The position numbers and the translations under genes are program-made. From positions 1-24,515 of the forward strand of contig JAVCCG010000129.1 in assembly GCA_030765605.1 (NCBI GenBank): a stretch of DNA of 24,515 bases, in the 5' to 3' direction. The notes under the pieces are model-generated. The model saw only the letters and a program-made list of their open reading frames with translations. It was not told where the DNA came from and made no database searches. The stretch comes from Candidatus Alcyoniella australis (GTDB lineage Bacteria; Lernaellota; Lernaellaia; JAVCCG01; Alcyoniellaceae). The stretch's first letter is position 1, and every line of letters begins with the position of its first letter. Of the stretch, positions 5,558-22,619 are shown piece by piece.

Positions 5558-6799
5558 ATGAAGCTGAGGGCGGTGCTTCTGATGTTGGTCATCTTCCTCA
5601 TCGTAAGCTTCGCCACCGCATCTTTGGCCCAGGAGGGCGACGATGACGGTGACGACGACGACGACGATGACGGTGACGACGACGATGGCGGAGACGACGA
5701 CGACGACGACGACGAAGGCGACGACGACGACGACGAGGATGAGAACAAGTGGGGCGAAGCGGCCCTAGATCACCCGTTGCACGACGTCTTCACTTATCCC
5801 ACCGACTACGTGGCTCGTCCGTTGGTCTACAATCGACGGATCTCCGAGTTGGGAGTGGTTTACCACCACTTCTACGCCACGGAATACTGGGACGAGGACG
5901 GTAACCTGGTCACCGGCAGCTTCAAGGTCAAGAAACAGACCTGGGAGCTGTACTTCGGTCTGGGCATTACCGACAACCTCACCTTCACGATGCGCTTCCC
6001 GTTCAGCTACAAAGAGACGCTGATCAAGCCCGGCAATCAAAATTACCGGCGCTTCAAGAGCAACGTCTACGGCGCCTCGATGGAGGACGCCCTGCGCAAT
6101 TGGTTGGACCAGGACGACATCTGGAAGTTGTGGGAAGCCACCTTGCCGCAGATGGGCGACGCCAGTTTCGAGATTCGTTACCAGGTCTACCATCGCTACG
6201 TCGACGACTGGAACACCTCGCTGGCGATTGACGCCAACTGGAAGTTCCCCACGGGCAACGACAACCCGCGGCGCAACGAGATCGCACGCAACTATCTGAC
6301 CGCGGGCACAACCGACTTCTACGGCGGCGTGGCCTTCAAGCAGCAGTTGTGGAAATTCTCGGCGATGGCCAAGGCCGGATACCTCTATCGAATGCCCTCG
6401 AACACCAAGTACAGCCCGGGCGAGATAGACATGGCCGATCAGGTCCAGGGCTACGGCGAGGTATTCTTCCAGGTGCCCAAGCTGCCGCCCTATCTGGGCA
6501 GCTTCGCCGTGGGTTCTGGGGTCAGTGTGATGTCGCGGCTGTTCGACACTACGATCGAGGACAAGGACGACCGTCGATTGACGCTGGACGACAAGGGAAC
6601 GTTCATCAACGTCCAGCCCAAGCTGCTCTATCAGCGCAGCTCGGGCTACGACGTCTGGATCGGCATGGACGTCCCGTTCGCCGGGCAGAACAGCTTCCTC
6701 AAGTACTCGCGGTCTTACTTCCTACCGCCATACGAGGTCGAGACGTATGAGCCAGCCGGTATCACCTACTCGATCGGCATTGCCAAGCGCTGGCAGTAG
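5558..6799 (+). CDS. Outer-membrane beta-barrel protein with Asp-rich mature N-terminus
   Basis: The protein has 413 residues. A signal peptide (1-24, cleavage near SLA-Q) is followed by a strikingly acidic segment at 26-62 made only of Asp (27), Glu (4) and Gly (6). From about residue 70 to the end, alternating aromatic/polar beta-strands (for example WELYFGLGITDNLTFTMRF) and a C-terminal strand ending YSIGIAKRWQ point to a transporter-like outer-membrane barrel. AAGGAAAGGA lies just before the ATG. It is the first gene of a three-gene operon; the next start is only 10 nt after its stop. I do not recognise a named family, and the substrate is unknown. The acidic arm could bind cations such as calcium, which is inference. 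Confidence 0.8.
   Translation: MKLRAVLLMLVIFLIVSFATASLAQEGDDDGDDDDDDDGDDDDGGDDDDDDDEGDDDDDEDENKWGEAALDHPLHDVFTYPTDYVARPLVYNRRISELGVVYHHFYATEYWDEDGNLVTGSFKVKKQTWELYFGLGITDNLTFTMRFPFSYKETLIKPGNQNYRRFKSNVYGASMEDALRNWLDQDDIWKLWEATLPQMGDASFEIRYQVYHRYVDDWNTSLAIDANWKFPTGNDNPRRNEIARNYLTAGTTDFYGGVAFKQQLWKFSAMAKAGYLYRMPSNTKYSPGEIDMADQVQGYGEVFFQVPKLPPYLGSFAVGSGVSVMSRLFDTTIEDKDDRRLTLDDKGTFINVQPKLLYQRSSGYDVWIGMDVPFAGQNSFLKYSRSYFLPPYEVETYEPAGITYSIGIAKRWQ
5633..5743 (+). repeat. GAY/GGY trinucleotide tract encoding the Asp/Gly segment
   Basis: A 111-bp, near-uninterrupted run of GAC, GAT, GGC and GGT codons (with a few GAA/GAG) encodes residues 26-62 of the barrel protein. Mixed GAC and GAT codons argue that the amino-acid composition is selected and not just a fresh microsatellite expansion. 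Such tracts can still change length in steps of 3 bp. Confidence 0.85.
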
Positions 6800-6809
6800 G
6801 GGGTGAATC

Positions 6810-9800
6810 ATGTTGACGCAAGCTAAAAGGATGGAGCGGGTCACCATGAAAGCGATGAGCGCCAAACTGGTTTTGGCCGCTGTCGTGATAACCCTCGTTT
6901 TGGCCTCAGTGCCCCAGACGGCCTCGGCGTCCTTCTTCCTCTGGGATGGAGAGATCACGCATAACGAGCTGGACTGGAAGTACTTCGAGACCGAGCACTT
7001 CATAATCTACTATTACGACCAGACCGAATATTCGGCGCGGGTGCTCTCCAAGTACATTGAGGACATCCACGACACGATCACGACCTATTTCAACTTCGAG
7101 CCCGCGCATAAAACTCGGATCACGATCATCGATACCGAGGACTATTCCAACGGTTTCGCAGCGTACAACTTCGATTGGATCACGCTGTGGACCAACAACC
7201 TCTACATCACACTGCGCGGGCGCCAAGACCACATCAAGTCGGTCTTCGCCCACGAGTACGGCCACATTGTCAGCCTCAAGGCCGCGGCGGTATTCCGCGA
7301 GAACATGATCGGCCTGGTGGTCGGTGGTACGCGCTCGAGCCAGAAATACAATTTCGACATCGGCGTCGGCTACTTCTGGGGCTCCGAGAACCTGCCGACC
7401 TGGATGGTCGAGGGCGTGGCCCAGTATTCCGACCAACTCTACGGCACCGACAACTTCGATACCCATCGTGAGATGTTGCTTCGTATGGCGGTCCTCGAGG
7501 ATACGATCCTCACAATGGACCAGATGGACATCATCTACGACAAGGACAACTTCATCCAAAGCGAGCTGGTCTACAACCAGGGCTACTCGATGACCAACTA
7601 CATCGGCGAAACATACGGCATGGATATGAACGCCAAGATGTGGCATCAGGCCGGCCTGGAGTGGCAGAATCTCGCATACGGCACGGTGATCAAGCGCGAG
7701 CTGGGCATCAACCGCGACGAGTTGTACAACCGCTGGAAAGAGTGGCTGCTCAACAAGTACACCCGCGAGCTCGAGGGGATCTACGGCAACGAGTACAAGG
7801 GCACCGAGATGGAGTTCTGGGACTGGCTGCCGCCCAAGGCCGAGCGCACCGATCAGGATAAGTGGATGGAGGGCATCCACAACCTGCAGGCCAAGTACAG
7901 CCCCGACGGCGAGTACCTGGCGTTCGCCTCGTCCGCCGGCTCGGGCAGCTACTACCCGAACCTTTACGTGCGCAAGACCCATCCCGATCTCGAAGAGAAG
8001 AACGACGAAAAGCCGGTCTTCGTGGCCAAGCTGCCCGCCGAGGGCTTCGACTGGTCGCCCGACAGCACGAAGATCGTCTACGTCAAGCACGCGGCGGAGC
8101 CCTACCGTCACGACTACCGCCAGGAAATCTTTGTCTACGATGTGGAGAAAGAGGTCCATACCCGCGTGACCCACCAGGTCCGTGCGTTCAACCCGGCCTG
8201 GTCGCCCACCGAGGACAAGATCGCCTTCACCGTGGCCAACAACGGCCAGCTGAGCCTGGCGATTCTCGATTACCCGAACTACGGCGGCTACTACAAGCTG
8301 GTCGAGTTCAACGATATGACCCAGTGCGGATGGCCGACGTTCAGCCCGGACGGAACCAAGATCGCCTTCCTGATGTACCGCCATGGACGGCAGGACATCT
8401 GGCTGATCAACTCCGACGGCACCGACCTGCGGCCGCTGACCTACGACCGTTTCGACAACCGCGACGCGTCGTGGATGCCCGACGGCAAGAGCATCGTCTT
8501 TTCCTCCGACCGCACGGGCATCTTCAATGTCTACAAGATGGACATCGAAACCCACGAGCTCACGCAGCTGACCAACGTTATCGGTGGCGCGTTCTGGCCG
8601 TGGATCAGCCCCAACGGCGAGGGCGAGACCGTAATAAACTACGCCTACTTCACCGCGCACGGCTTCCGGCTGCACGAGATGAAGTTCGACGAGTTCTACG
8701 GCAAGAAGGTCGAGGACTACTACTTTGACGTGACTGAAGAGGAAATCGCCGCCAACCTGGCCAGCCTCGACCCAATCCCCGAGATCGTCGGCCACGACTA
8801 CGCGGTGTGGAACGGTCCGCTGGGCATCTGGCCGATCTGGGCCGAGCATCGTGGACGCTGGGTGATCTACCCCGAGTTCATGTACGAGGATCAGCGCTTC
8901 AAAGCCGGGTTCACAACGATCGCCATCGACCAGGCCGAACGTAACCTGGTGGTGGGCGAGATGCTGTTCGGCGAGGAGACCGAGTACCACCTGTGGTACG
9001 AGAACTACATGCTGCCGTTCACCACGTTCCTGAGCTTGCACCGGATCTTCCCGATCAACTCCTCGGAGTTCGACGCCCTGCACTTCAAGCTCAAGGCCTC
9101 GTTCGACGCGGCCTTCTACCTGATGGGCGCGCGCTATACGTTCAAAGGCAACAACTGGTACTTCTACTACTTCTTCAAAGACATCCGGGTCGAGCAGCCT
9201 GGTATGCGCATGCGGCAGTTCACCGGCCGCAGCCTCAACCTGGCCTACTCCAACGACTCGATTATCGACTACCGCCTGGACGGCAGCGCCAACCCGCGCG
9301 GAGGCTCGTCGTTCTTCTTTGAGTTCATGTACGCCAACCCCAACATCAAAGAGCCGTTTACCGGTGCTTCGATGGGTTCCGACCTGAGCGCGATCTACGG
9401 CGATACCGAGAACTACTACACCAAGTACGATACCGAGACCGACGACTCCCTCTATCCGTTGCCCGACTACGGCTACTGGGGATTCAACGTCAACTATCAG
9501 AAGTACTTCCCGATCCCGTTCTGGGGCACCACGCCCCGCAGCAAGTACGACCTGACCGCGGGCAAGGGTTGGGCTTACCAGTGGTACAAGCTGGACCACA
9601 CCCTGAACTTCAAGTTCATCGGTGGGTTCGTGCATTCGACCGTTCCCGAGGACTTCGGCTGGGGCAACAGCTACGGCCGCGTTCACTGGTACGATCGCTT
9701 CGCTGCCGGCGGAATGACCTTCTCCGGCACGCGAGCCTACTCCAACAACGGAACCTTCCTCGGCTATGAGCGCTACACCCTCGAGGGTGAGACCATGGCC

Positions 9801-10157
9801 GTGGCCGGTCTGGAGTACCGCTTCCCGATCATTCGGGACATCGACACCAAGTTCGGACCGTTCTACTTCGACGCGGTCTACGGCGCGGTGTTCGGCGACG
9901 CGGGTAACCTCTGGTCCCATGTGAACAAGCAGAAGGACTTCTACAACCCGGCCAAGATCTTCGACGACAACGGCGACGGCGAGTTCACCCTTGCCGACGA
10001 CTTGCTCTACGACGTCGGAGGCGAGCTGCGGTTTACGATGTTCCTGTTCAACGGATTTTGGAACAGCTTCATCAAGGTCGCCCACGGCTTCCAGGACGAG
10101 GAGCGGGATAAGTTCCCGGTCCGGTGGTACCTGGGTCTTGGCACCGACTTTGATTGA
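6810..10157 (+). CDS. Giant surface metalloprotease: gluzincin + PD40 propeller + C-terminal barrel
   Basis: This 1115-residue exported protein has a signal peptide ending at about residue 40 (TASA-S). A peptidase-MA-like zinc domain follows: TEHFIIYYYD near 60, HEYGH at 148-152 and WMVEG with Glu201 as likely third zinc ligand. Residues ~355-620 carry at least five TolB/PD40-type repeats (YSPDGEYLAF, WSPDSTKIVY, WSPTEDKIAF, FSPDGTKIAF, WMPDGKSIVF). The region ~660-1115 is aromatic-rich and ends like a BamA/D15-type barrel (YGAVFGDAGNLW). An EF-hand-like loop (D1052, N1054, D1056, G1057, D1063) interrupts the last strands. AGGGGGTGA supports the ATG at 6810. Met13 (6846), preceded by GGAG, would give a more usual signal peptide. 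The antisense strand is also open across the gene, which I treat as a shadow. Confidence 0.82.
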   Translation: MLTQAKRMERVTMKAMSAKLVLAAVVITLVLASVPQTASASFFLWDGEITHNELDWKYFETEHFIIYYYDQTEYSARVLSKYIEDIHDTITTYFNFEPAHKTRITIIDTEDYSNGFAAYNFDWITLWTNNLYITLRGRQDHIKSVFAHEYGHIVSLKAAAVFRENMIGLVVGGTRSSQKYNFDIGVGYFWGSENLPTWMVEGVAQYSDQLYGTDNFDTHREMLLRMAVLEDTILTMDQMDIIYDKDNFIQSELVYNQGYSMTNYIGETYGMDMNAKMWHQAGLEWQNLAYGTVIKRELGINRDELYNRWKEWLLNKYTRELEGIYGNEYKGTEMEFWDWLPPKAERTDQDKWMEGIHNLQAKYSPDGEYLAFASSAGSGSYYPNLYVRKTHPDLEEKNDEKPVFVAKLPAEGFDWSPDSTKIVYVKHAAEPYRHDYRQEIFVYDVEKEVHTRVTHQVRAFNPAWSPTEDKIAFTVANNGQLSLAILDYPNYGGYYKLVEFNDMTQCGWPTFSPDGTKIAFLMYRHGRQDIWLINSDGTDLRPLTYDRFDNRDASWMPDGKSIVFSSDRTGIFNVYKMDIETHELTQLTNVIGGAFWPWISPNGEGETVINYAYFTAHGFRLHEMKFDEFYGKKVEDYYFDVTEEEIAANLASLDPIPEIVGHDYAVWNGPLGIWPIWAEHRGRWVIYPEFMYEDQRFKAGFTTIAIDQAERNLVVGEMLFGEETEYHLWYENYMLPFTTFLSLHRIFPINSSEFDALHFKLKASFDAAFYLMGARYTFKGNNWYFYYFFKDIRVEQPGMRMRQFTGRSLNLAYSNDSIIDYRLDGSANPRGGSSFFFEFMYANPNIKEPFTGASMGSDLSAIYGDTENYYTKYDTETDDSLYPLPDYGYWGFNVNYQKYFPIPFWGTTPRSKYDLTAGKGWAYQWYKLDHTLNFKFIGGFVHSTVPEDFGWGNSYGRVHWYDRFAAGGMTFSGTRAYSNNGTFLGYERYTLEGETMAVAGLEYRFPIIRDIDTKFGPFYFDAVYGAVFGDAGNLWSHVNKQKDFYNPAKIFDDNGDGEFTLADDLLYDVGGELRFTMFLFNGFWNSFIKVAHGFQDEERDKFPVRWYLGLGTDFD

Positions 10158-10186
10158 TAAACCTGACCACGGTGTGGGAGGTTGAA

Positions 10187-12667
10187 ATGAACTGGCGAAC
10201 GATCTCGTTCCTCCTGGTTATCACGGCGGCCATGGCTTTGCTCATCGGTTGCATGCCTGACAGCACCGAGATAACGGAGGAGATTCCAACTGAAGGCAAC
10301 GACACCTTCCATTTTAAGGTCGATGAGATAGCCCTGGCCGAAGAGGTCAACGAGTTCGGTGAAACCACCGGACGCAGGGGCATGCCGATGGACCTTGACC
10401 GTGACGGATTAAACGAAACCTTCTATCAGGTTCCGTATCCCAAGGTCGGTGTATTCCCGCTGGGTTTTGACGCCGAAACCGGGGTTTCCAATGCGGTAAC
10501 CACAGCCGGCATCATGGATGTCGTACCGGGCAAGACCGAGTATTCGATGTCGATCCTGCCGTTGCGAAGCTGGCTCAAGCTCAGCTACGTTGATAGCGTT
10601 GACACCAGCCGGAATCCCGATCAGTTGACACTCGTGTCCTGGATCGATCCGGTAAACCAGAAGGAACTCACCGCGCCGATAACCGGACGGGAGGACAATC
10701 CGATCTGGGAGGTCTTCGACCTGGGCTCGGTTAAGGTCAACGCTGATCCGGGCGCGGACGACGACGACGATGACGACGATGACGACGACACGCCGCCGGT
10801 ACTCAAGGGCTGCGAGCTGTATCAGGCCCTGTGCGAGGCAATGGAGCCCTGCGCTTCGGGTGACTTTACTGTAAGCAGTTGCGCTGATTGGTACTCGATC
10901 AATTCCAAGAATTCCGAGTACCGCGACCTGTTCAAGTGCATTGACGTGATCGATTACACCTTGTCCTGCGGCGAAGCGCTTGCGTTGCGCGACCAATGCT
11001 GGGACGAGAATGTAGTCGATTATTACGGCTGCAAGGCGCAGCATGCCCCCGACATCGAAGACGTCTACTACTCCAAGGGCGGCGCAATCAGCACCTACGG
11101 CGAGTCCAGCACACCGGCCCTTGATTCAGACCAACCATTGGGCATCTTCTTCCATTATCGCGACGCTGAAGGCGACATTGTCGGCGGCAAGATTCGCGTG
11201 CAGATCAACGGCGGCGACGTCCAGAGCGTGGATATTCCCTCAGCCGACTGGGGTATGACCTCCTGGGACAGCAAGGCCGTGATCGGTGTCAGCGTTAACG
11301 GCGACATCGACAGCGGTGAGCACACGATCGAAGCCTGGCTGGTTGACAACTGCGGCAACGCAGGCAACCACATTGTCCGCAACTTCACCGCCAACAGCGG
11401 CAACCGAGGGTCGGACACCGACCTGACCGGCAAGCGCCTGACGTTCAGCGCGTTGGAGATTTTCGATCCCGAGGTCAACAACTTCAACAAGGGGAAGGGA
11501 TTCATCGCACAGGAAGTGTTTGACGATGGATACTTCTACGAGATCGAAGGCTTCGCGATTTCGATCCTCCAGGCCTACATTTGGTTCATCCGCGACAAGG
11601 ACGACTCCAATCAGCTCGAGTACGACTTTATCGACTCCAAGGTGCTGTACAACACGCACCATGACGGCGGGACCAAGTCCGATGTTCGCGACGACAGCAT
11701 CGCCTCGGTCTTCCTGTTCGACGAGCCGATGCCGATGGGCATCCTGCTGATCTACGGCGATGCCGGCTGGAACCTGTTCCATCAGGGACCGTACGGCTCG
11801 TCCGACGTCAACTTCGTCCGCGGCAACTGGAACGACCACGTGATCGGCGTGCCGACGCAGCCGATCTTCCAGGTCAAGCCTGACTATCAGGGATGTAACA
11901 CCGACGACGCACTGTGCGGTCACTGGGTGGATCGGGTTGACGACGAGGACATCGAACTGGCCGACAACAAGGGCAATACCTTGAGCCGCGACAAGGCGGT
12001 AGAGAGCTGCTCCGAGCATTCGGCCAATCCGTACTGGCAATGTGTTGTGAACTGTTCCAAGAAGGACGAGTTCGGCACAATCGGCTGCGGCGACCTCGAG
12101 GATTGCGTTGACGAATGCACCTGGGGTGACACCGCCAATTCAATGTGCGACCTGCAGGACAACATCGTAATGCATCTCAAGCTGCGGGTGCCCAGCCGCT
12201 ACGCCAACGATCCCAAACATTACGATCGCCTGATGAACGACGACGATATCTACATCGGAGTGTTCGTTCAGGGCGATGGCCCGGTGCCCGGCGCCTACGT
12301 CAAATTCGACCCGGCGCGGTCGAACTACAACGTACCGTTGGCATACGGCGACTGGCTGCCCAAGAGCTTGTTCCAGAATACTTCGACCATCGGCGACTGG
12401 TGGATGCAGGCCTACCCCGGCATCTTCAAGGTCACCGACACCGGCGGCGTGATCTACGGCAGTGCTTACCTACCGGCCAACGAGACCTATGAGGATCCGT
12501 GGTACTTCCTGATCAACTACGGCTTCAACTGGATCGACCCGACCTTCGAGGGCTGGAGCCTGTACACGGTCTCCGGCAAGTACATCCAAGATCCGTACCC
12601 CTGGTCCACGGTGATCCCGATCACCTACGGCGATAAACGCGCCATGGGCGGCGACTGGCTGAAGTAG
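10187..12667 (+). CDS. Large surface or periplasmic lipoprotein with Asp11 linker and Cys-rich module
   Basis: The product is 826 residues. The lipobox LLIGC places the lipidated Cys at residue 22. I start at ATG 10187 because GGGAGG lies 5 nt upstream and the lipobox is then at normal distance; an upstream TTG in the same frame is less likely. A calcium-loop-like DLDRDG follows near residue 69. A run of 11 Asp (10757-10789) separates the N-terminal domain from a Cys-rich module (GCELYQALCEAMEPC...CADW...C), then a beta-rich region resembling Ig-type folds (~320-420), a second Cys-rich patch (CEHS...CVVNC...CGDLEDCVDEC) and a Trp/Tyr-rich C-terminus. No known family is recognised. It is the third gene of the surface operon, 29 nt after the protease, and is followed by a strong terminator. 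Confidence 0.78.
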   Translation: MNWRTISFLLVITAAMALLIGCMPDSTEITEEIPTEGNDTFHFKVDEIALAEEVNEFGETTGRRGMPMDLDRDGLNETFYQVPYPKVGVFPLGFDAETGVSNAVTTAGIMDVVPGKTEYSMSILPLRSWLKLSYVDSVDTSRNPDQLTLVSWIDPVNQKELTAPITGREDNPIWEVFDLGSVKVNADPGADDDDDDDDDDDTPPVLKGCELYQALCEAMEPCASGDFTVSSCADWYSINSKNSEYRDLFKCIDVIDYTLSCGEALALRDQCWDENVVDYYGCKAQHAPDIEDVYYSKGGAISTYGESSTPALDSDQPLGIFFHYRDAEGDIVGGKIRVQINGGDVQSVDIPSADWGMTSWDSKAVIGVSVNGDIDSGEHTIEAWLVDNCGNAGNHIVRNFTANSGNRGSDTDLTGKRLTFSALEIFDPEVNNFNKGKGFIAQEVFDDGYFYEIEGFAISILQAYIWFIRDKDDSNQLEYDFIDSKVLYNTHHDGGTKSDVRDDSIASVFLFDEPMPMGILLIYGDAGWNLFHQGPYGSSDVNFVRGNWNDHVIGVPTQPIFQVKPDYQGCNTDDALCGHWVDRVDDEDIELADNKGNTLSRDKAVESCSEHSANPYWQCVVNCSKKDEFGTIGCGDLEDCVDECTWGDTANSMCDLQDNIVMHLKLRVPSRYANDPKHYDRLMNDDDIYIGVFVQGDGPVPGAYVKFDPARSNYNVPLAYGDWLPKSLFQNTSTIGDWWMQAYPGIFKVTDTGGVIYGSAYLPANETYEDPWYFLINYGFNWIDPTFEGWSLYTVSGKYIQDPYPWSTVIPITYGDKRAMGGDWLK
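10757..10789 (+). repeat. GAY tract encoding 11 consecutive Asp
   Basis: Eleven successive GAC/GAT codons lie inside the lipoprotein gene, placed like a linker between the N-terminal domain and the Cys-rich module. The codon mix resembles that of the Asp tracts in the barrel gene, the GH43-like gene and the HEFFH metalloprotease gene. Confidence 0.85.
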
Positions 12668-12766: not shown

Positions 12767-13438
12767 ATGCTGCGCAGATTAGTTCTTCTGAGCTTAATGG
12801 TATCAATGCTGTGGACGATCGCCGTGGCGCAAGAGCGCGCGGACTTCCTGCGCTTCGATCCTCAAGGCGTGGTCGACCGCACGGATTTCGAGCTGAGCGT
12901 GGTCAGCCGTAGCGCGGACGAGCTGGTTTTACGCTTGAGCGTGCCCGGCGTGTTCTACCAGGATCAACAGGCCCAGGACCGCGAATTCAAGCGGTTGTAT
13001 CTGCCGGGCGAGGGCATGACCCAACAGGTCGGACTGCCCGAGCTGCCGCTGATCCGCGAGCGGCTGGAGGTGCCCGCGGGCGTGAGCATTGGGGTGCGGC
13101 TGATCGAGGCGGACCACGGCGTGATAAGCGGGATCGTGCCCTGGCCGTTTCAGGCGCCGCTGCTCGAGGGGCAACAGGCCGCAAGCTTCGACTTTGACGA
13201 GCAGGCCTACGCCGTTGCCGGACTCTATCCCGCGCAGTTGATCGAAGTTTCCGAGGTAGGGCAGATGCGCGGGACCAGCGTGGTCACCATCAGCTTTGCG
13301 CCCCTGCGCTACGATGCGGCCAAAGGCGAGCTGCAAACGACCCGTAGCGCGACTTTCGCCCTGACCTTCGAGTACGGACAAGACCCTGGGAACGACGCCG
13401 ATCCTGCGGCCCAAACGGCAAAGCCTAGCTGTCGGTAA
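12767..13438 (+). CDS. Orphan C25 (gingipain-type) propeptide, peptidase missing
   Basis: The 223-residue secreted protein has a signal peptide (about 1-21, ending VAQ) and then a region resembling the Propeptide_C25 domain: GLPELPLIRERLEVPAG near 86-102, GLYPAQLIEV near 155, and a closing strand pair ending RSATFALTFEYG. In the family this propeptide precedes a Cys-peptidase C25 domain and keeps it inactive. Here the frame stops ~13 residues after the propeptide, and a palindromic repeat copy starts 57 bp later. AGGGGAGG lies just before the ATG. It may be the remnant of a protease gene that lost its catalytic part, or a stand-alone inhibitor of another C25 protease. The family call rests on motif pattern only. 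Confidence 0.6.
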   Translation: MLRRLVLLSLMVSMLWTIAVAQERADFLRFDPQGVVDRTDFELSVVSRSADELVLRLSVPGVFYQDQQAQDREFKRLYLPGEGMTQQVGLPELPLIRERLEVPAGVSIGVRLIEADHGVISGIVPWPFQAPLLEGQQAASFDFDEQAYAVAGLYPAQLIEVSEVGQMRGTSVVTISFAPLRYDAAKGELQTTRSATFALTFEYGQDPGNDADPAAQTAKPSCR

Positions 13439-14493: not shown

Positions 14494-15522
14494 ATGCGTT
14501 TTCCAACTCTGATCATCCTCCTGCTGGCGATCGTTGCTTTTCCCGCGAGCGTGCTGGGCTATTCAGCGCCCATCGACCTGCCCGGCGCCCCCAGCGCGGC
14601 CGATCCGCACGTGCTGTATCACGAGGGCACGTACTACCTATATCCGACCACGGGTTTCGAGTCCGACCGCCTCGAATGCTGGAGCTCGACCGACCTTGAG
14701 CACTGGGACTATCGTGGCGTGATCTGGGGCCCGGTGCCCGCGGGTTGGTGGAACGATGGCAAGATATGGGCCCCGCATGTGGAGCGCGACCCGCTCAGCG
14801 GCCGCTTCTACCTTTACTACACGGCCAACGAGAAGATCGGCATGGCGGTCTCGGACTCGCCGATAGGGCCGTTCTTTGACGTGTTCGACCATCCGTTTAT
14901 CGGCGACGGCTACGGCGGATGCGAATTCAACGCCATTGACGCCTTTATCTGGCGCGAGCCGGACGGCAGGCTGTTCATCTACTACGTGGGGTACGAGCCC
15001 TGGGCCACGATCCGCGTCTCGTCGATGCCCGACTACGAACACGTGGACCCGTGGTGGATCGTGCTCACACGGCCGCTGCCGCTGTCGTGGGAGGGGTTCA
15101 TCAACGAAGGCCCCTGGATGTTCAAGCGCGGCAACACCTACTACCTGATGTACTCGGGCAACGGCGGAAATCTGCCGTGGTACGCCATCGGCTTTGCCGT
15201 GGGTTCCGACCCGCTGGGCCCTTTTAAGAAGTACGTTTACAATCCGATTCTATCGACCGACGTGGACCGCAATTTTTTTGCCCCAGGTCACCACAGCCTG
15301 GCGCGCACACCCGAAGACCCCAACCAATACCTGATCTTCTACCACACGAAAGACAGCCCGCTTCCCGGCTGGGAGCGCAGCGTGCGCATCGACCGCCTGC
15401 AGTTCTCCCACGGCATACCCTACGTGGATCCCGACGATGACGACGACGATCCCGCACCCGAACCCCCGCCAGTGGACGACGATTCGGATGATGATGATGA
15501 TCTGGAGTGGTGCGGGAACTAG
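14494..15522 (+). CDS. Secreted GH43-like glycoside hydrolase with Asp-rich tail ending in Cys
   Basis: The 342-residue protein has a signal peptide (about 1-22) and a five-bladed GH43-type propeller. Likely catalytic residues are Asp37 (SAADPHV, general base), Asp149 (NAIDAFIW, pKa modulator) and Glu205 (INEGPWMFK, general acid). The repeated pattern of YYLY, YLYYT, IYYVGYE and YYLMYSG matches GH43 blades. Members cleave alpha-arabinosides, beta-xylosides and related plant or algal glycans; the substrate here is not determinable. After the domain come Asp runs (314-319, 328-330, 332-336) around a Pro-rich spacer and a tail LEWCGN with Cys340. A TATAAT promoter lies upstream. It is convergent with the AT-rich island. 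Confidence 0.85.
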   Translation: MRFPTLIILLLAIVAFPASVLGYSAPIDLPGAPSAADPHVLYHEGTYYLYPTTGFESDRLECWSSTDLEHWDYRGVIWGPVPAGWWNDGKIWAPHVERDPLSGRFYLYYTANEKIGMAVSDSPIGPFFDVFDHPFIGDGYGGCEFNAIDAFIWREPDGRLFIYYVGYEPWATIRVSSMPDYEHVDPWWIVLTRPLPLSWEGFINEGPWMFKRGNTYYLMYSGNGGNLPWYAIGFAVGSDPLGPFKKYVYNPILSTDVDRNFFAPGHHSLARTPEDPNQYLIFYHTKDSPLPGWERSVRIDRLQFSHGIPYVDPDDDDDDPAPEPPPVDDDSDDDDDLEWCGN

Positions 15523-16217
15523 AAGTTGCTAATTTGCTTATAGTATTCAGGTAGATGCAAACGAAGACGGTTTAAAAAACTCCAACATTGCGCTGCCGCC
15601 TTTCTCCGTGGGTATTTTAGGTTGTACTGCTCATAGGTTTTATTATATTCGGAGCAGAGTATTTTAACGAGATCATCATCCGAACGTTGTTTTTGCTGGT
15701 TATTACCCGGGAATATTGATTTTATTGGCCAGAGACATAGTTGAGCGAATAGAAAAGCTTCATCGTTCGCATTTATCACATCTTTTGGGCTCCGTTCGAA
15801 ATTTGGTATTTCAAGAAGGTCTTTATGTAGAAGTAAATGTGCAACTTCAACTGCTAGATAGAACCATTTTGACTCAGGTTTGATTTTTTCATGATTGCTG
15901 ATCCATATTCGTATAAACTCTGTTCCTTCTTCGTCCAGTTCGACGAGGTCGATAATACTTCTGAATCTTTTAGCGTAGTCTGGTGTCTCGATGTATTTTA
16001 TTTGTAGCCAACCCTTTGCACCTCGTATAAATGGAACTTCCTGGAAGAAAAGGCCATCATTTCGTATCCCGCCATGGTTTATACCCAGGGCCTCTTGGGC
16101 GATCACGTTCAGATGAACCGGAAGCAAAGTATTTCGGAGGAAGAATTCATTCAATGTTTGTGACTGGGGCCTTGCGTTGTAAATTCTTCGATACATACTA
16201 GTCTCTAGTCTATACAT
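15519..16217 (-). CDS. ImmA/IrrE-like protein with degenerate zinc site
   Basis: The protein has 232 residues. LLPVHLNVIAQEALGI (31-46) fits the N-terminal helix pattern of ImmA/IrrE (COG2856) peptidases. WFYLAVEVAHLLLHKD (118-133) aligns with their active helix FTLAHELGHLLLH, and NDEAFLFAQLCLWP (151-164) with the ANxFAxxLLMP segment that carries the third ligand. The first His of HExxH is Val123; Glu124 and His127 remain. Active relatives cleave phage or ICE repressors; this one may be a non-catalytic sensor or regulator. It overlaps the preceding small membrane-protein gene by 8 bp. Met8 is an alternative start. It belongs to the AT-rich island. Family assignment is by motif reading only. 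Confidence 0.6.
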   Translation of the reverse strand: MYRLETSMYRRIYNARPQSQTLNEFFLRNTLLPVHLNVIAQEALGINHGGIRNDGLFFQEVPFIRGAKGWLQIKYIETPDYAKRFRSIIDLVELDEEGTEFIRIWISNHEKIKPESKWFYLAVEVAHLLLHKDLLEIPNFERSPKDVINANDEAFLFAQLCLWPIKSIFPGNNQQKQRSDDDLVKILCSEYNKTYEQYNLKYPRRKAAAQCWSFLNRLRLHLPEYYKQISNF

Positions 16218-16500
16218 CGTCCTTGTTATCCTCTTTCTTTTTAGTGCTCCTTACTTTTTTCAAGACGTTCTTTTTATTCTCTTTCATTTCTGTATATAAA
16301 AATTGAATCATTTCATCATCTACATCCCCATCCCCGTATACATTTAAAAAGTTTTTGCTATTGTCAAATAATGTATAAGTATTACGAACATCTTTTTTGG
16401 AACTAGTTTTTCTATAAAAAATATCAATAATAAGGCCACCAATTGCCACAATAAATAATCCTACTGTTGCTATTGCGGCGATGGCTTGCCAGTCCTGCAC
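16210..16500 (-). CDS. Small single-pass membrane protein of the AT-rich island
   Basis: The 96-residue protein starts with GTG, with AGGAG 5 nt upstream. One N-terminal transmembrane helix (about 6-29, IAAIATVGLFIVAIGG) is followed by a mixed soluble segment and a strongly Lys-rich tail (MKENKKNVLKKVRSTKKKE) that should face the cytoplasm. I do not recognise a family. Its gene overlaps the ImmA-like gene by 8 bp, so the two are translated together and may interact, for example as a membrane partner of the degenerate peptidase; this is inference. Confidence 0.65.
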   Translation of the reverse strand: MQDWQAIAAIATVGLFIVAIGGLIIDIFYRKTSSKKDVRNTYTLFDNSKNFLNVYGDGDVDDEMIQFLYTEMKENKKNVLKKVRSTKKKEDNKDDV

Positions 16501-16572
16501 AAGATCTCCTAAATTGTTATACGAAGAAATCGGAAATAAATAAAAATATTGACATCCAACTAATATATAGAA

Positions 16573-16764
16573 TTATTTGCACCCTTTTTTCTTTTTTATT
16601 GTAGTCATTTTGTCTTTTTTGACAATCATGTTTGCTAATTGTTCATTGCCTTGTTCTAGCTGCTCTAATAGAAAAGCTGCTGCTTGAGAATCAAATGATT
16701 CCATTCCCAATGCAGCGGATTTCTTTTTTGTTAGTTCAGTGATTGGGCTAAGCTTTTTTGCCAT
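16573..16764 (-). CDS. Small Lys-rich hypothetical protein
   Basis: This is a 63-residue open frame in the AT-rich island: MAKKLSPITELTKKKS, then a predicted helix rich in Gln/Glu/Leu (AAAFLLEQLEQGNEQLANMI), then a basic tail ending KKKKGCK. No Shine-Dalgarno is seen. A TTGACT-N17-TATTTA promoter would start transcription within a few bases of the ATG, so the message may be leaderless. The pattern of a helix plus basic tail is protein-like, but no family is recognised. Confidence 0.45.
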   Translation of the reverse strand: MAKKLSPITELTKKKSAALGMESFDSQAAAFLLEQLEQGNEQLANMIVKKDKMTTIKKKKGCK

Positions 16765-16772
16765 AATAGTGA

Positions 16773-16801
16773 TAAATAATATAAGTATGCCAAAAAGTCA
16801 A
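16773..16801 (-). promoter_or_regulatory. Candidate promoter of the AT-rich island
   Basis: On the minus strand TTGACT (16796-16801) is followed after 17 bp by TATTTA (16773-16778), a 3-of-6 match to the -10 consensus. It also reads CTTGACTTTTT, the same 11 bases as the -35 region before the barrel gene (5425-5435). AT-richness makes chance matches likely. Confidence 0.3.
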
Positions 16802-16840
16802 GGATATTTATAATCTCAGTTTTCTTTTTGATAAATAATG

Positions 16841-18211
16841 TCAGAAATTGTATTTAGCCCGTAGGACCAGCATGTCGTTCTTGTCGAACTCGCCGAAGCG
16901 TGTGTCTTCCTCGCCGCCCATGATGTATGCCGAGAGTTGCAGGGCGAAGTCGTCGGTGAACAGGTAGTCCACGCCGGGGTGCAGCAGCCAATCGCCGTGG
17001 GCGAAGTTGTAAAACCCGGAAACGCTGAACGCCAGCATATCCTCTAAAAACGCCTGTTCTACGTTGAGGATCGTGCCGGACTCCATTTCGGCGTCGAACA
17101 ATCTGGGTTCGTAATCGAGGATCTGCAAGTGGAAATACTGGGCCACCACGCGGCCGCTCTCCCACATGTAGTCGGCGGCCACAATGCCGTCCACCGTGGC
17201 CTTGCGCGTGCGGTAGTCCTTGCCCACGAAGTTCAGAAAAGCCCAGGCTGTTTCGTAATTAAGATCGGCATTGTCTACGTCCACCGGAAGCTCGTAGAGG
17301 TACCACTTGGGCGTGGTGAAAGAGCCCTCGAAGCGCAGGCCCACGCCGCCGACTCCGGTTGAGACCGACAGTCCGTAGACGTTGACCCGCTGGTACACGC
17401 GCTGGAGTTGCAGGAAGTCGCCGGAGAGCAGCTTCGAGGCGTAGGTGTCGATGCGGTAGGTGGGGAAGTCGTCGAACCCGTCAAAGGCCACGGCGTAGAT
17501 GTCCCAGCCGCGCAGGCTCAGGCCTAGGCGCGCGGCGACCTCGGAGTTATTCAGCGTGGGCTCGGGCCGTTTCTCGGGCAGCTCCTCAATGTAGAAGTCG
17601 AAGTCCGTGGCCAGCGTGTTGATGATGCGCAGTTGGTGAGGGACCCAGATGCTCTGATCGGGGTCCGAGGGGATGCGGTCGGGCTCGAACAGCGGAATCC
17701 AGACCACCTCGAGCCGCGCGGGCCCGAGGAACAAATCGCCCTCAAGCATCCAGACGCCGATCTTGCGTTCGGACTTGTCGTAGGTGAAGAACGAACTCAG
17801 ATCGTCGGGATTGACCACGTCGATCGGGTTGTACTCGTAGGCGTCGCCCCATTGATAGATGCGGCGTCCGGCGGCCACGGCAAAGTACTTACTGAGGTAC
17901 ATGCCGTAGGCCTCGCGCAGCCGGACATCGGTCTGCTCGCCCTGCTGGGCGTCGATCGGCTGATCCAGCACGTCGTAGCGCAGATCCACGTCGGCGAACA
18001 TCCGCGCTTTACCACCAGAGCCGCGGGCGTTGAGGCTCAGGTCGAGCCAGGCCAGGGCCGAGTGCATGGCGGCCTGCTTGGCCCGCCCCAGTTTTTGCGC
18101 CAGCAGGCGGCCGTCGGCCAGCAGGAAGCCGTAGAGCTGCACGTCGGCGGCCAGCGCCGCAACGGGGAGCAGCAGACAAACGATCAGCACCAGTGCAATC
18201 GAACGCCGCAT
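16841..18211 (-). CDS. DUF1302-like outer-membrane beta-barrel
   Basis: The 456-residue protein has a signal peptide (about 1-21, ALA-A) and alternating beta-strands throughout, ending LVLRAKYNF with the C-terminal Phe typical of BAM substrates. GRRIYQWGDAYEYNPIDVVN (115-134) matches the WG...NP(x)D region of DUF1302 porin-like proteins. It starts 39 nt after the LolA-like gene, with AAAGGA upstream of the ATG, and is the last gene of the marR-RND operon. In comparable clusters such a barrel accompanies an HAE3 RND exporter and a LolA-like protein, suggesting passage of a hydrophobic substrate to or from the outer membrane. The substrate is unknown. Its 3' end marks the border of the AT-rich island. 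Confidence 0.75.
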   Translation of the reverse strand: MRRSIALVLIVCLLLPVAALAADVQLYGFLLADGRLLAQKLGRAKQAAMHSALAWLDLSLNARGSGGKARMFADVDLRYDVLDQPIDAQQGEQTDVRLREAYGMYLSKYFAVAAGRRIYQWGDAYEYNPIDVVNPDDLSSFFTYDKSERKIGVWMLEGDLFLGPARLEVVWIPLFEPDRIPSDPDQSIWVPHQLRIINTLATDFDFYIEELPEKRPEPTLNNSEVAARLGLSLRGWDIYAVAFDGFDDFPTYRIDTYASKLLSGDFLQLQRVYQRVNVYGLSVSTGVGGVGLRFEGSFTTPKWYLYELPVDVDNADLNYETAWAFLNFVGKDYRTRKATVDGIVAADYMWESGRVVAQYFHLQILDYEPRLFDAEMESGTILNVEQAFLEDMLAFSVSGFYNFAHGDWLLHPGVDYLFTDDFALQLSAYIMGGEEDTRFGEFDKNDMLVLRAKYNF

Positions 18212-18250
18212 CTAATCAATCCTTTACGTTCGGCGCGGGCCGGAATCGAA

Positions 18251-19021
18251 TCAGGGGTTTTCGAGCTGCTGCAAAGTGAACAGCTCGGGTTTGAGCCCCT
18301 GGTTGTGCTTGATCTCGAGGATCGTCAAGGTGGTGTTCGAGCCCTGCTGCACGTTCTCGATCTTGAGCACCATCACGGTCCAGAAGCCGTTGATCTGCTC
18401 GATGCGCTGGGCAGTGCCCTCTTTAATAAGCTGGCCGTTGGCATCGTACATCTTGAGGCGCAGCGGCACGTATTGGTCTTTCCAAACCCAGGTCTCGATC
18501 CTGCTGTACTCGATCTCTTTATCTTTGGGCACCGAGCTTAAGATCCAGCAATCCTTGCCGTCGATTACGGCCGAGCCCTTGAGCTCGTGGGTCTGGTCGG
18601 CGGCGTCGTGGTCGGACATGTCGTAGTAGCTCAGGTCCGAGTTCATGAACGAGTCGTTCTGGTTGGACGATTCGATGCGCACGGTCTTTTTCTGGCGCGC
18701 CATGTACATCCAGCGGTCGTCGTCGCCGTCCTTGTGCTGCAACGAGAGGAAGCCGTAGTTTTTGTACTTGGCAGGCTCGACAAAGCGCATCAGCTGCATG
18801 TTGCCCGCATCGTCGTAGAGCTTGTTTATCTGCAGCGTGCGCTCTTTGGTCTTGCCGTTGCTGGTGACGATCGTCATTTTCATCGTCTCGACCTTGTCCA
18901 GACCCTCGTCGCGCTCCATGGTTTTCTTGGCGACTTCGTCCGCGCTGAGATCCGCGGCCATTGCGGCCACGGCGAGTCCCAGTATCAGGGCGAAGATTGA
19001 CGCAAAAGCTATCTTTCTCAC
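18251..19021 (-). CDS. LolA-like outer-membrane lipoprotein-sorting protein
   Basis: The 256-residue protein has a signal peptide (1-22, AMA-A) and a LolA/LppX-like fold typical of COG2834 proteins that sit beside RND exporters. The pattern ADEVAKKTMERDEG, DDDRWMYMARQKKTVRI and MNSDLSYYDMSDHD is characteristic, with later strands KDCWILSSVPKD and RIETWVWKDQYVPLRL. Such proteins carry lipids or lipoproteins through the periplasm in a hydrophobic cavity. The start is GTG, with GGGAG 9 nt upstream; it overlaps the RND stop by 4 bp (GTGA), so the two proteins are translationally coupled. The likely role is as periplasmic shuttle between the RND protein and the outer-membrane barrel, which is inference from context. 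Confidence 0.85.
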   Translation of the reverse strand: MRKIAFASIFALILGLAVAAMAADLSADEVAKKTMERDEGLDKVETMKMTIVTSNGKTKERTLQINKLYDDAGNMQLMRFVEPAKYKNYGFLSLQHKDGDDDRWMYMARQKKTVRIESSNQNDSFMNSDLSYYDMSDHDAADQTHELKGSAVIDGKDCWILSSVPKDKEIEYSRIETWVWKDQYVPLRLKMYDANGQLIKEGTAQRIEQINGFWTVMVLKIENVQQGSNTTLTILEIKHNQGLKPELFTLQQLENP

Positions 19022-21840
19022 TTGGTGGTACTCCCTGTGTGAGGTTGTTTCTTAACGAAGCGCGGCACAAACAGGCCGAACAGCGCCGGGTAGCAGATCA
19101 GCGTTGTGCTCGCGGCAACCAACATGCTCAGGGCGGTGAGGATGCCCATGCGCATCATCGGGTTGAACTGGCTGAAGATCAACACCAGCCAGCCCAGGAT
19201 CAGCGATACTGCGTTGATCGCAATCGCCGCTCCCGCGGTCTGGGCGGTGAGCTGCATCGCCTCGACCGGCGAATGGCCTGCGGCGACCTCGAGCCGGAAG
19301 CGGTTGAGGTAGTGGATCGCGTAGTCCACGCCCATGCCTATCGCTCCCACCGAGACCAACGCGGTGCCGATCTCGAGCGGAATGCGATGTATCGGCAGGC
19401 CGTGGGTGTAGAGCATCGCGGTCAGCCCCATCAGCGCGAAGTTCATGCCGATCGTCACTACCACCGGCACAATGGCGTACAGTCCGCCCAGTGCCGAGCG
19501 GAAGATGATCATGCACAGAATGAACACCACCACCAGGCAGACGACCAGCGAGGTGATCTGGCCGGTGACGATCATCCGGTCGGCCTCGGCCTGCAAAAAG
19601 TGCGGGCCGGAGATGATCAGCGAGCCGTGGCGGCCCGAGTCGGTGATGTTCGGGTTGTAGATGTTGTGGATTTTGTCCCACAACCCGGGCTCGGGCGGGC
19701 CTGGCCTGGCCCAGTCCAGCTCGCCCTGGATCTCGCGGTCGTAGTAGTCGAACAGCGCGTCGCGCAGCGACCAGAACTTGCGCGTGCTGCCTTCCTTGAA
19801 CTGCATCGCCACGCGGATCGCCGCGTAATCCTCTACGTCCAGGGTGCCTTCGAGTTGCTCGTCGCCAATGGTGAAGTAGTAGTCGAGCACCTGGTCTTCG
19901 GTCTCGGGAACCCGGTAGAACTGCGGGTCCCCGCCGTTGGTCACCTGGTGGAAGCGTTTGAGGTAGGACAGCGCGCTGATCGACTTGCCCGGCTCGGGAT
20001 AGGTCTGCGGGTCCTGCTCGTGCAAGGCAGTGACATAATCGATCATCCCCTGCACCGCGGCCAGGCTCTGCGGATCGCTGAAGGCGTCGGGCTCGGCCTC
20101 GAACACCAGGTCGATGACCGAGGTGCCGCCGAACGAGGCGTTCAGTCGTTGGTCGGACTGGATGATCTCGCTGCTGCTTTTAAAGAAGGTGACGAAGTTG
20201 CTGTCGCTGTAGATGCCCCTCATCAGGAAGATCGTCACCGGCAGCCCCGCGACCATGGCGATCAGCACGGCTTTGCGGTGGTTGTAGAAGAACATGCTGA
20301 AGCTCGCCACGTTGCGCCCCAGCCAGCCACCGTCTTTGCCGCCCAGCCGCCGGGCCTTGACCGGCAACAGCACCAGCAGCGCAGGGATCGTGGCGATCGA
20401 GACGATCAGCGCCACGGCCACGCCCAGCGAGAGCATCAGGCCGAAGTCGCGGATCAGCACCACCTTGCTCGTGGCGTTGGCTAAAAAGCCGACCACGGTG
20501 GTCACGCCGGTCATTACCACCGCCAGGCCGACCTCCTGGAGGGTCTTGGCCACCGCCTCGTTCTGCGGTACGCCCTCGGCCACCAGCTCGTATATGTAGT
20601 GGATCATGTGGATCGTATAGGCCGTGCCGATCGCCATCAGTACAACGGGGATCGAGCTGGTGATCATCGTCATCGGCTTGCCCACCAGCGCCATGAACCC
20701 TACGGTCCAGATCACGGAGATGATGACCGTCAGCATCGGCAGGGCCACTCCGCCCAGGCGGCGGAACGAGACCAGCAGCGTCGCCAAAATCACCAGCAGC
20801 ACCAGCGGAATCATCGTGCGCAGGTCGCGCTGCATGTACTCGCCGAGCATGATCGTGATCACCGGCGATCCGGCGACCTCGACCTCGATCCCCTCGGGGA
20901 CTTCCTGCTGCACTATCGCCCGCGCCTGTCTGTAGATCTCCTCTTTTTGCTCGATCTCCATGCCCGCGGGCAGCTTGATCATGATTCCGGTCGAGAGCTT
21001 GTCGTAGCTGGCCATGGTGCCGGCGAAGGTCTCCCAATCGAACAGGTCGAGCTCGAGCTGTTTGACGATCTGTAGCTGCTCCTGTTCGTCCGCGGGCCAC
21101 GAGGGGAGCAGGTCGCTGACCGAGACCACCACCTCCTCGGAGCCGTCCTCGAGCAGCTCGGTGCTGCCGCGTACGGTTTTAACCGTGGGGATCGCCAGTA
21201 CGTCTTCCATCAACACGCTGCGCGCGCAGATGTCGTCCTCGATTTGGGCTTCGGTGCAGCCTGCGCAGTTGCGCTCGATCAGCTTGGGAACGAACTGCCT
21301 CTGGGCGCTGAAGCACAGGCCTTCGCCGCGATTCTCGACGCTGCACTGGGTGGGCTCGTTGACCAGCAGTGTCCGCAGGTCGTCGTGATCGGCCAGCCGC
21401 ATGCAGCTTTGGTTGTCCCAAGCCGATTGGTCGCACTCGGGTAGGGAACTGCGCAGATCTGCCAGGTCGGAGCGGCTATCGGGCCAGATGAACCAACCGG
21501 GGCGGTGGCTGTCGAACTCGTCGCCGATGCGGTCGACGAAACGCAGTTGCTCGAGCTTTTCACAGATGCGGTCCAGCGCCTCGATCACCCGCGGCTGAAA
21601 GATCGTCTGGTCTTGGCCCTCGGGCGTGTAGAGGCCGAAGATCATGATCGTGTCCGAGCCGAACTGTTTGGTCAGCACGCTGTAATACGACTTGGCCGGA
21701 TTATCGCTGGGTAAGAATTCCTTGATCTCGTTGCTGATCCTGATTTTCGGGATCTGCAAGGCGAAAAAGATCGTGACGATCAAAGTGGCGACCAGTATCA
21801 ACTTCGGATTGTTCAGGACGAACTTGCTCCAAAGGCGCAT
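19018..21840 (-). CDS. RND superfamily exporter, HAE3/MmpL-like
   Basis: This 940-residue inner-membrane transporter has the two-fold RND architecture. TM1 (12-30) is followed by a large periplasmic domain (to ~343), TM2-6 with GTAYTIHMIHYIYE (405-418), a second periplasmic domain from ~550, and a second helix block with GVDYAIHYLNRFR near 836. The GxxYxIHxxxxxx pattern is diagnostic of the HAE3 branch, which includes hopanoid and lipid exporters such as HpnN. Eight Cys between 93 and 205 (93, 136, 146, 166, 176, 192, 195, 205) form an unusual Cys-rich stretch that could make disulfides. The ATG overlaps the marR stop by 1 bp (TAATG), and the stop overlaps the LolA-like GTG. Proton-driven export of a hydrophobic compound is likely. 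Confidence 0.9.
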   Translation of the reverse strand: MRLWSKFVLNNPKLILVATLIVTIFFALQIPKIRISNEIKEFLPSDNPAKSYYSVLTKQFGSDTIMIFGLYTPEGQDQTIFQPRVIEALDRICEKLEQLRFVDRIGDEFDSHRPGWFIWPDSRSDLADLRSSLPECDQSAWDNQSCMRLADHDDLRTLLVNEPTQCSVENRGEGLCFSAQRQFVPKLIERNCAGCTEAQIEDDICARSVLMEDVLAIPTVKTVRGSTELLEDGSEEVVVSVSDLLPSWPADEQEQLQIVKQLELDLFDWETFAGTMASYDKLSTGIMIKLPAGMEIEQKEEIYRQARAIVQQEVPEGIEVEVAGSPVITIMLGEYMQRDLRTMIPLVLLVILATLLVSFRRLGGVALPMLTVIISVIWTVGFMALVGKPMTMITSSIPVVLMAIGTAYTIHMIHYIYELVAEGVPQNEAVAKTLQEVGLAVVMTGVTTVVGFLANATSKVVLIRDFGLMLSLGVAVALIVSIATIPALLVLLPVKARRLGGKDGGWLGRNVASFSMFFYNHRKAVLIAMVAGLPVTIFLMRGIYSDSNFVTFFKSSSEIIQSDQRLNASFGGTSVIDLVFEAEPDAFSDPQSLAAVQGMIDYVTALHEQDPQTYPEPGKSISALSYLKRFHQVTNGGDPQFYRVPETEDQVLDYYFTIGDEQLEGTLDVEDYAAIRVAMQFKEGSTRKFWSLRDALFDYYDREIQGELDWARPGPPEPGLWDKIHNIYNPNITDSGRHGSLIISGPHFLQAEADRMIVTGQITSLVVCLVVVFILCMIIFRSALGGLYAIVPVVVTIGMNFALMGLTAMLYTHGLPIHRIPLEIGTALVSVGAIGMGVDYAIHYLNRFRLEVAAGHSPVEAMQLTAQTAGAAIAINAVSLILGWLVLIFSQFNPMMRMGILTALSMLVAASTTLICYPALFGLFVPRFVKKQPHTGSTTK

Positions 21841-22304
21841 TATTTGTTGTTCCTTCCATTGTCGATGGCTTGCAGTTCGCGTTCCATTCCCTGCGCGATC
21901 GCCTCGAGATGTTCCAGAAGTTGTCCGAGCTGTGCGGGGTTAAGGTGTTTGATCACCTGCTCGGTAAATTTCCGCCGGTAGGCCGTGATTTCGCGAAACA
22001 GGCGCTTACCGGCCCGCGATAGCTGTACGCGCACCACGCGCCGATCCTCGGGATCGGGACGGCGCTCGACGAACCCGCGCTCGATCAGCCGGTCGATGAT
22101 CCCGGTCAGGGTGCTCGGAGCCAGGCGCAGACCGTCGGCCAAACAGCTCATGGTTTGCATCCCCTGTTCGCCCAGCGCGCTGAGGGTGATCACCTGCTGC
22201 GAGGGCATGCGCGAGATCCTGCCGTGCAGCACCTGCGCCTCAAGGTAGCGGTCGATCATCCGCTGCAGCAGATCTTGGATTTTCCGAATCTCCGGGTCGT
22301 CCAT
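21840..22304 (-). CDS. MarR-family transcriptional regulator
   Basis: The protein is 154 residues. The winged helix-turn-helix spans about 55-105: MSCLADGLRLAPSTLTGIID (recognition helix) followed by the wing RPDPEDRRVVRVQL, where the DxRxxxxxLT-like signature is seen as DRRVVRVQLSRAG. Helices at both ends would form the dimer interface. It is the first gene of the operon and overlaps the RND gene by 1 bp, so it probably controls export in response to a ligand. A palindrome lies between the -35 and -10 of its promoter, a standard arrangement for autorepression. The ligand cannot be inferred. Confidence 0.92.
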   Translation of the reverse strand: MDDPEIRKIQDLLQRMIDRYLEAQVLHGRISRMPSQQVITLSALGEQGMQTMSCLADGLRLAPSTLTGIIDRLIERGFVERRPDPEDRRVVRVQLSRAGKRLFREITAYRRKFTEQVIKHLNPAQLGQLLEHLEAIAQGMERELQAIDNGRNNK

Positions 22305-22436: not shown

Positions 22437-22521
22437 TTGACTAGATAACAACGGCCGCGGGCCTTTTGAGAGCCGGATGATAAAAACCGTTAAGAAACCT
22501 CGGTTTTGCCTGCAAGATGGC

Positions 22522-22550
22522 TTGACATCACGTGGCTTGGCATGGAGAAT
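22522..22550 (+). promoter_or_regulatory. Candidate sigma70 promoter for the HEFFH metalloprotease
   Basis: A perfect TTGACA (22522-22527) is followed after 17 bp by GAGAAT (22545-22550), a 4-of-6 match. Transcription would start near 22557, downstream of the first in-frame ATG at 22506. This supports the GTG at 22620 as the real start. Confidence 0.55.
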
Positions 22551-22584
22551 TTCACCGCCCGCGACCCTACGGGGAACGCATCAT

Positions 22585-22604
22585 ACGTACCGGTCTTCGT
22601 ACGT
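22585..22604 (+). promoter_or_regulatory. Leader hairpin just before the Shine-Dalgarno
   Basis: ACGTAC (22585-22590) and GTACGT (22599-22604) form a perfect 6-bp stem with an 8-nt loop. It ends 1 nt before GAGAGGAG (22606-22613), the ribosome binding site of the GTG at 22620, so it could influence translation initiation or message stability. Confidence 0.4.
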
Positions 22605-22619
22605 CGAGAGGAGCTTTTC

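Follow-up and report, generated by a model that had tools for sequence, protein, structure and literature searches.

The window analyzed here, a stretch of 24,515 nucleotides from Candidatus Alcyoniella australis, carries at its center of interest a gene (P0001) for a 1115-aa protein flanked by two operon partners (Table 1). The protein almost certainly combines a gluzincin domain, a TolB-like propeller, and an Omp85-type barrel in one chain; profiles and predicted structure (full-length AlphaFold2 model, pTM 0.82) agree with the original prediction of a gluzincin, a PD40 propeller, and a BamA-like barrel fused together. An alignment of starts suggests that the ATG at 6846 is perhaps likelier than 6810 to be the start, with a ribosome site plausible at both. 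Antisense to the gene lies an open frame of 1059 aa (6906-10085, minus strand), most likely a side effect of the high-GC codon usage.

Table 1. Coordinates of P0001, its domains and motifs, and its operon partners within the window
Feature	Position	Strand	Basis
P0002, 413 aa, predicted outer-membrane barrel, upstream operon partner	5558..6799	+	weak FapF/Phenol_MetA_deg likeness
P0001, CDS, gluzincin-TolB propeller-Omp85 barrel protein, 1115 aa	6810..10157	+	ORF ends exact
Likely signal peptide, residues 13-40, hydrophobic helix with A-S-A end	6846..6929	+	sequence; model helix 9-37
Gluzincin (peptidase MA-like) domain, residues ~50-325	6957..7784	+	PF13485
HEYGH zinc-binding motif, residues 148-152, within helix 141-159	7251..7265	+	invariance
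WMVEG, residues 198-202, with E201 as presumed third zinc ligand	7401..7415	+	invariance; helix 197-210
Six-bladed TolB-like beta-propeller, residues ~335-631	7812..8702	+	PD40, TolB profile, TolB structural match
Linker, residues 632-682, without recognizable POTRA	8703..8855	+	model secondary structure, Pfam scans
16-stranded Omp85-type beta-barrel, residues 683-1111	8856..10142	+	profiles and model
FLGY, residues 983-986, at Omp85 L6 motif position, loop beta11-beta12	9756..9767	+	alignment
EF-hand-like loop DDNGDGEFTLAD, residues 1052-1063, in predicted extracellular loop L7	9963..9998	+	
P0003, 837 aa, Cys-rich lipoprotein with lipobox, downstream operon partner	10154..12667	+	

In Pfam, the isolated N-terminal domain scored 34.1 bits with Peptidase_MA_2 (PF13485), over the cut-off of 32.4, and the whole protein 32.0 bits, slightly under it; the model also matched 70 of 71 relatives. 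PF00149, a calcineurin-like phosphoesterase family, was not matched in the protein. In the full-length model, where pLDDT is mostly about 90 across this domain and lower at residues 171-190, HEYGH and E201 each fall within a helix (Table 1). Across a 71-member and a 21-member alignment, which cover about 90 relatives from many phyla, H148, E149, H152, and E201 never vary, and on these alignments their invariance is well beyond chance. With these residues invariant and PF13485 over cut-off, the peptidase-MA-like zinc site proposed from HEYGH and the downstream Glu of WMVEG is upheld, and none of the aligned relatives has lost it. The HExxH helix, the Glu in a second helix, and the domain profile together assign the protein, as far as sequence and model go, to the gluzincin type of clan MA, and the Pfam match and predicted secondary structure apparently reflect a gluzincin fold. 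The matches to the full-length model in a fold search were taken up by propellers, speaking neither for nor against that fold, and the gluzincin profile found only chance-level matches (dynein light chain) among PDB sequences. We consider it probable that the protein is an active zinc protease.

The propeller is recognized by PD40 on the whole protein (Pfam, E = 3.6e-20). Six SPDG-like repeats lie between residues ~364 and 605, where at least five had been predicted, and the region is modeled as six blades with a structural match to TolB (Z 25.8). The two share a six-bladed PD40 propeller, but the protein misses the equivalog cut-off of the NCBIfam TolB profile (118.5 bits versus 343), and the genome encodes its true TolB at another locus. 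The suggestion that this is a propeller of the peptidoglycan-binding type is no more than an analogy with TolB-Pal.

Modeled alone, the C-terminal part forms 16 strands with a mean pLDDT of 73.7, a model of moderate confidence in which long loops are poorly predicted. The best 47 Foldseek matches to this model were all Omp85 relatives (TamA, BamA, Sam50, Toc75, FhaC, and CdiB), and a second structural comparison gave Z 19.8 with BamA. The window barrel by itself had no Pfam match and found nothing in a PDB sequence search; the matches came with the family profile, built from 71 barrels, which hit TamA and BamA chains only (E 8.8e-4 to 0.03). Omp85 (PF01103) was matched in 24 of the 71 relatives, at best with 2.2e-10. 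Judged by profile and model together, the C-terminal part is an Omp85-superfamily barrel, in keeping with the D15/BamA-like barrel first suspected and with a transmembrane-type structure of 16 strands resembling BamA and TamA. No POTRA domain was detected in Pfam scans of the protein and its relatives, or between propeller and barrel in the model.

This protein has in common with BamA and TamA a barrel of 16 strands and, joining strands 11 and 12, a loop of the L6 type, but those proteins have POTRA domains, and in the window clade Leu replaces the L6 Arg. The L6 motif of Omp85 proteins (VRGF/LRGY) reads FLGY in all same-class proteins and FPGY in a Myxococcota MAG; Arg or Lys is kept in the other 14 of 21 proteins, and the Omp85 classification of 2014 relies on barrel similarity, with the L6 Arg not among its criteria. 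We infer from the model that, with the N terminus periplasmic, odd-to-even connections face outside, so that the FLGY loop would be L6, as in BamA, and the EF-hand-like loop L7. The latter matches D-x-N-x-D-G-x-hydrophobic-x-x-x-D at residues 1052-1063, occurs with N, S, or T at position 3 in all seven genomes of the class, and was seen in none of the other aligned relatives; it is a class-specific insert between predicted strands 13 and 14. The position and pattern of this loop were described correctly, but with its predicted location across the membrane and its restriction to the class it lends no support to the possible calcium dependence of the enzyme that had been proposed with it.

Matches at E <= 1e-20 were present in 26 of 98 sampled genomes, the window's own counted. 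Each of the other six class genomes is among them, with ~50% identity; in one of these six the match is broken into several frames. A single-sequence scan of the genome contigs found nothing; the relatives came from an alignment query, with at least 358 among the matches listed. Among these listed matches, most were from KSB1, Latescibacterota, Ignavibacteriota, Calditrichota, Neomarinimicrobiota, and Gemmatimonadota. From these at least 358 relatives, 80 were retrieved, and almost every one is a single ORF of ~900-1250 aa. By sequence, the same-chain architecture is widespread in FCB phyla and not unique to the window genome; in the tree, the window class groups with the Myxococcota MAG, with support and separately from the FCB clade. 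A search of plasmids gave no full-length match and one partial match (50% of the query), to a Salinibacter ruber protein annotated as basic secretory protein-like, the rest being mostly of propeller type. No named NCBIfam model covers the entire chain.

The order P0002-P0001-P0003 is kept, co-directional and nearly gap-free, in all six other class genomes. P0002 matches FapF weakly (E 0.0018), and a P0002-like gene lies beside the Myxococcota MAG homolog (hhalign 97.3%, E 1.9e-11); P0003 has no Pfam match. Relationships of P0002 to PorV (40% probability over 98 columns) and, on comparison, of P0003 to M6i were rejected. A distant paralog of 959 aa is encoded on contig C61 (L007:7467-10346), with an intact HExxH site and a barrel that reaches the Omp85 cut-off, downstream of an ORF whose 634-aa product is lipoprotein-like and contains an Asp-rich stretch. 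Long Asp runs are found in the secreted P0002 and P0003 as well as near the C61 paralog; that of P0002 is much shorter in class relatives.

Elsewhere in the window, an orphan gingipain-type propeptide (Propeptide_C25, 223 aa; 12767-13438, plus strand) has no catalytic domain after it, and a 592-aa protein (22506-24284, plus strand) matches DUF6055 and scores 102 bits with the MXAN_6640 putative metalloprotease model, whose cut-off is 140. A low-GC stretch at 15519-17000 (0.38 at 16001-17000 versus ~0.60), beside a small ORF that weakly resembles Peptidase_M78/IrrE, was possibly acquired. On the minus strand at 16841-22304, genes for a MarR regulator, an MMPL-type RND exporter, a LolA-like protein, and a DUF1302-like protein likely form an operon, which looks like an envelope lipid export set.

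How does this protein relate to known systems? WD40-Omp85, in which a TolB-like propeller is joined to an Omp85 barrel, was defined in 2014 by Heinz and Lithgow (PMC4104836), whose suggestion for its function was a BamA-BamB-like role; the WD40-like subfamily has since been called not well characterized (PMC11116518). With a TolB-like propeller in place of POTRA and an Omp85 barrel, as assigned from profiles and models, the 1115-aa protein falls within that definition and is a real, underdescribed variant of this known subfamily. Both have a propeller and then an Omp85 barrel without POTRA, but the invariant gluzincin domain and the gene cassette described below do not appear in the main text of PMC4104836, which does not mention "peptidase" and assigns its "metalloprotease" subfamily to PF00149. 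That "Metallo" subfamily, as presented there, likewise has a metal-dependent enzyme domain on an Omp85 barrel, but the domain is a different one. PL-Omp85/PlpD (type Vd) also places a hydrolase domain N-terminal to an Omp85 barrel, combining a patatin lipase with POTRA, whereas here a putative zinc protease is combined with a propeller. Among open-access PMC papers, nothing beyond WD40-Omp85 was found on the gluzincin-propeller-Omp85 combination or the cassette.

The N-terminal domains of Omp85 barrels are periplasmic. The enzyme domain that PlpD carries on its Omp85 barrel likewise stays in the periplasm (PMC11116518), and for these two reasons we doubt the original description of a surface protease, which is probably wrong; by analogy, the gluzincin domain and propeller most likely sit on the periplasmic side of the outer membrane, not on the cell surface. 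The reading we favor, and hold to be reasonably likely, is that of an outer membrane-tethered, periplasmic WD40-Omp85 zinc metallopeptidase that matures or clears exported proteins. We imagine that, after Sec export, the 16-strand barrel would insert in the outer membrane and leave the gluzincin domain and six-bladed propeller hanging on the periplasmic side, with the propeller probably gating the zinc site or presenting substrate to it. The enzyme may then cut proteins in assembly at, or export across, the outer membrane, for maturation or clearance. The likely clients would be T9SS-linked surface proteins in FCB bacteria and the co-encoded lipoprotein P0003 and barrel P0002 in the window clade, a speculative assignment drawn solely from gene neighborhood.

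In FCB loci, PorV, an M6-like protein of ~1000 aa, the protease-barrel gene, and a DUF5683-like gene of ~285 aa follow one another in this order on one strand (cassette loci L057-L136; example L066:1857-5941). In loci with enough flank, chosen by score and drawn mainly from one orthologous clade, the M6-like gene is directly upstream in 56 of 65, PorV is present in 50 of 57, and the small DUF5683-like gene is downstream in 52 of 68. The NCBIfam "T9SS-dependent M6-like inactivated metalloprotease" model matched all 15 M6 proteins tested, 11 of which have a T9SS sorting tail, and the PorV profile was likewise matched in 15 of 15. HExxH is kept in none of 50 M6 proteins. This cassette connects a WD40-Omp85 gene to type IX secretion genes in FCB phyla, a genomic association that appears to be new.

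One can envision that in FCB bacteria the protease is dedicated to a branch of type IX secretion, where it would form one device with PorV and the dead, exported M6 protein, as the cassette frequencies and the loss of HExxH from all 50 M6 proteins would suggest. Yet in the window clade the protein persists with no such cassette, a barrel gene and one for a large lipoprotein taking its place, which argues that its activity is independent of the cassette, and gene order could reflect shared regulation only; we find this alternative doubtful. Profile searches of the window genome found no M6i and no PorV over cut-off; a search for SprA, which gave no signal in any control, was uninformative. More tentatively than our favored metallopeptidase, we offer the possibility that PorV, the dead M6 pseudoprotease, an active Omp85 zinc protease, and the DUF5683-like protein make up an undescribed type IX-linked outer-membrane processing device in FCB bacteria, with the same protease serving other clients (P0002 and P0003) in the window clade.

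It is unlikely that the protein serves chiefly in assembly or translocation, as a BamA-BamB-like fusion in which the protease-like domain would be a binding domain or a quality-control cutter for stalled barrels. The Omp85 fold and the TolB/BamB-like propeller are consistent with such a role, and it is the one proposed for WD40-Omp85 in the main text of PMC4104836. However, a pure binding domain would not need strictly invariant catalytic residues, and the window clade no longer has the Arg of the Omp85 L6 motif. The genome also has a separate five-POTRA BamA (contig C95), a second BamA-like protein (C53), and a TolB over cut-off (C85), so the protein would add to the standard machinery and replace none of it. 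Least probable is a surface-exposed protease whose gluzincin domain and propeller are moved outside by the barrel or by host secretion machinery, as once proposed for type Vd PlpD, since, even though Omp85 relatives such as FhaC translocate proteins and the FCB neighbor genes belong to a secretion system, both domains would have to unfold and cross a 16-strand barrel, and the PlpD enzyme domain was shown to remain periplasmic.

An outer membrane-tethered metallopeptidase of this kind would give a testable activity, through its invariant zinc-protease site, to WD40-Omp85, a subfamily listed since 2014 with its function unassigned. The family would also join PlpD as the second case in which an Omp85 barrel anchors an enzyme, and its association with PorV and the dead T9SS-dependent M6 protein may offer a concrete place to seek its substrates.
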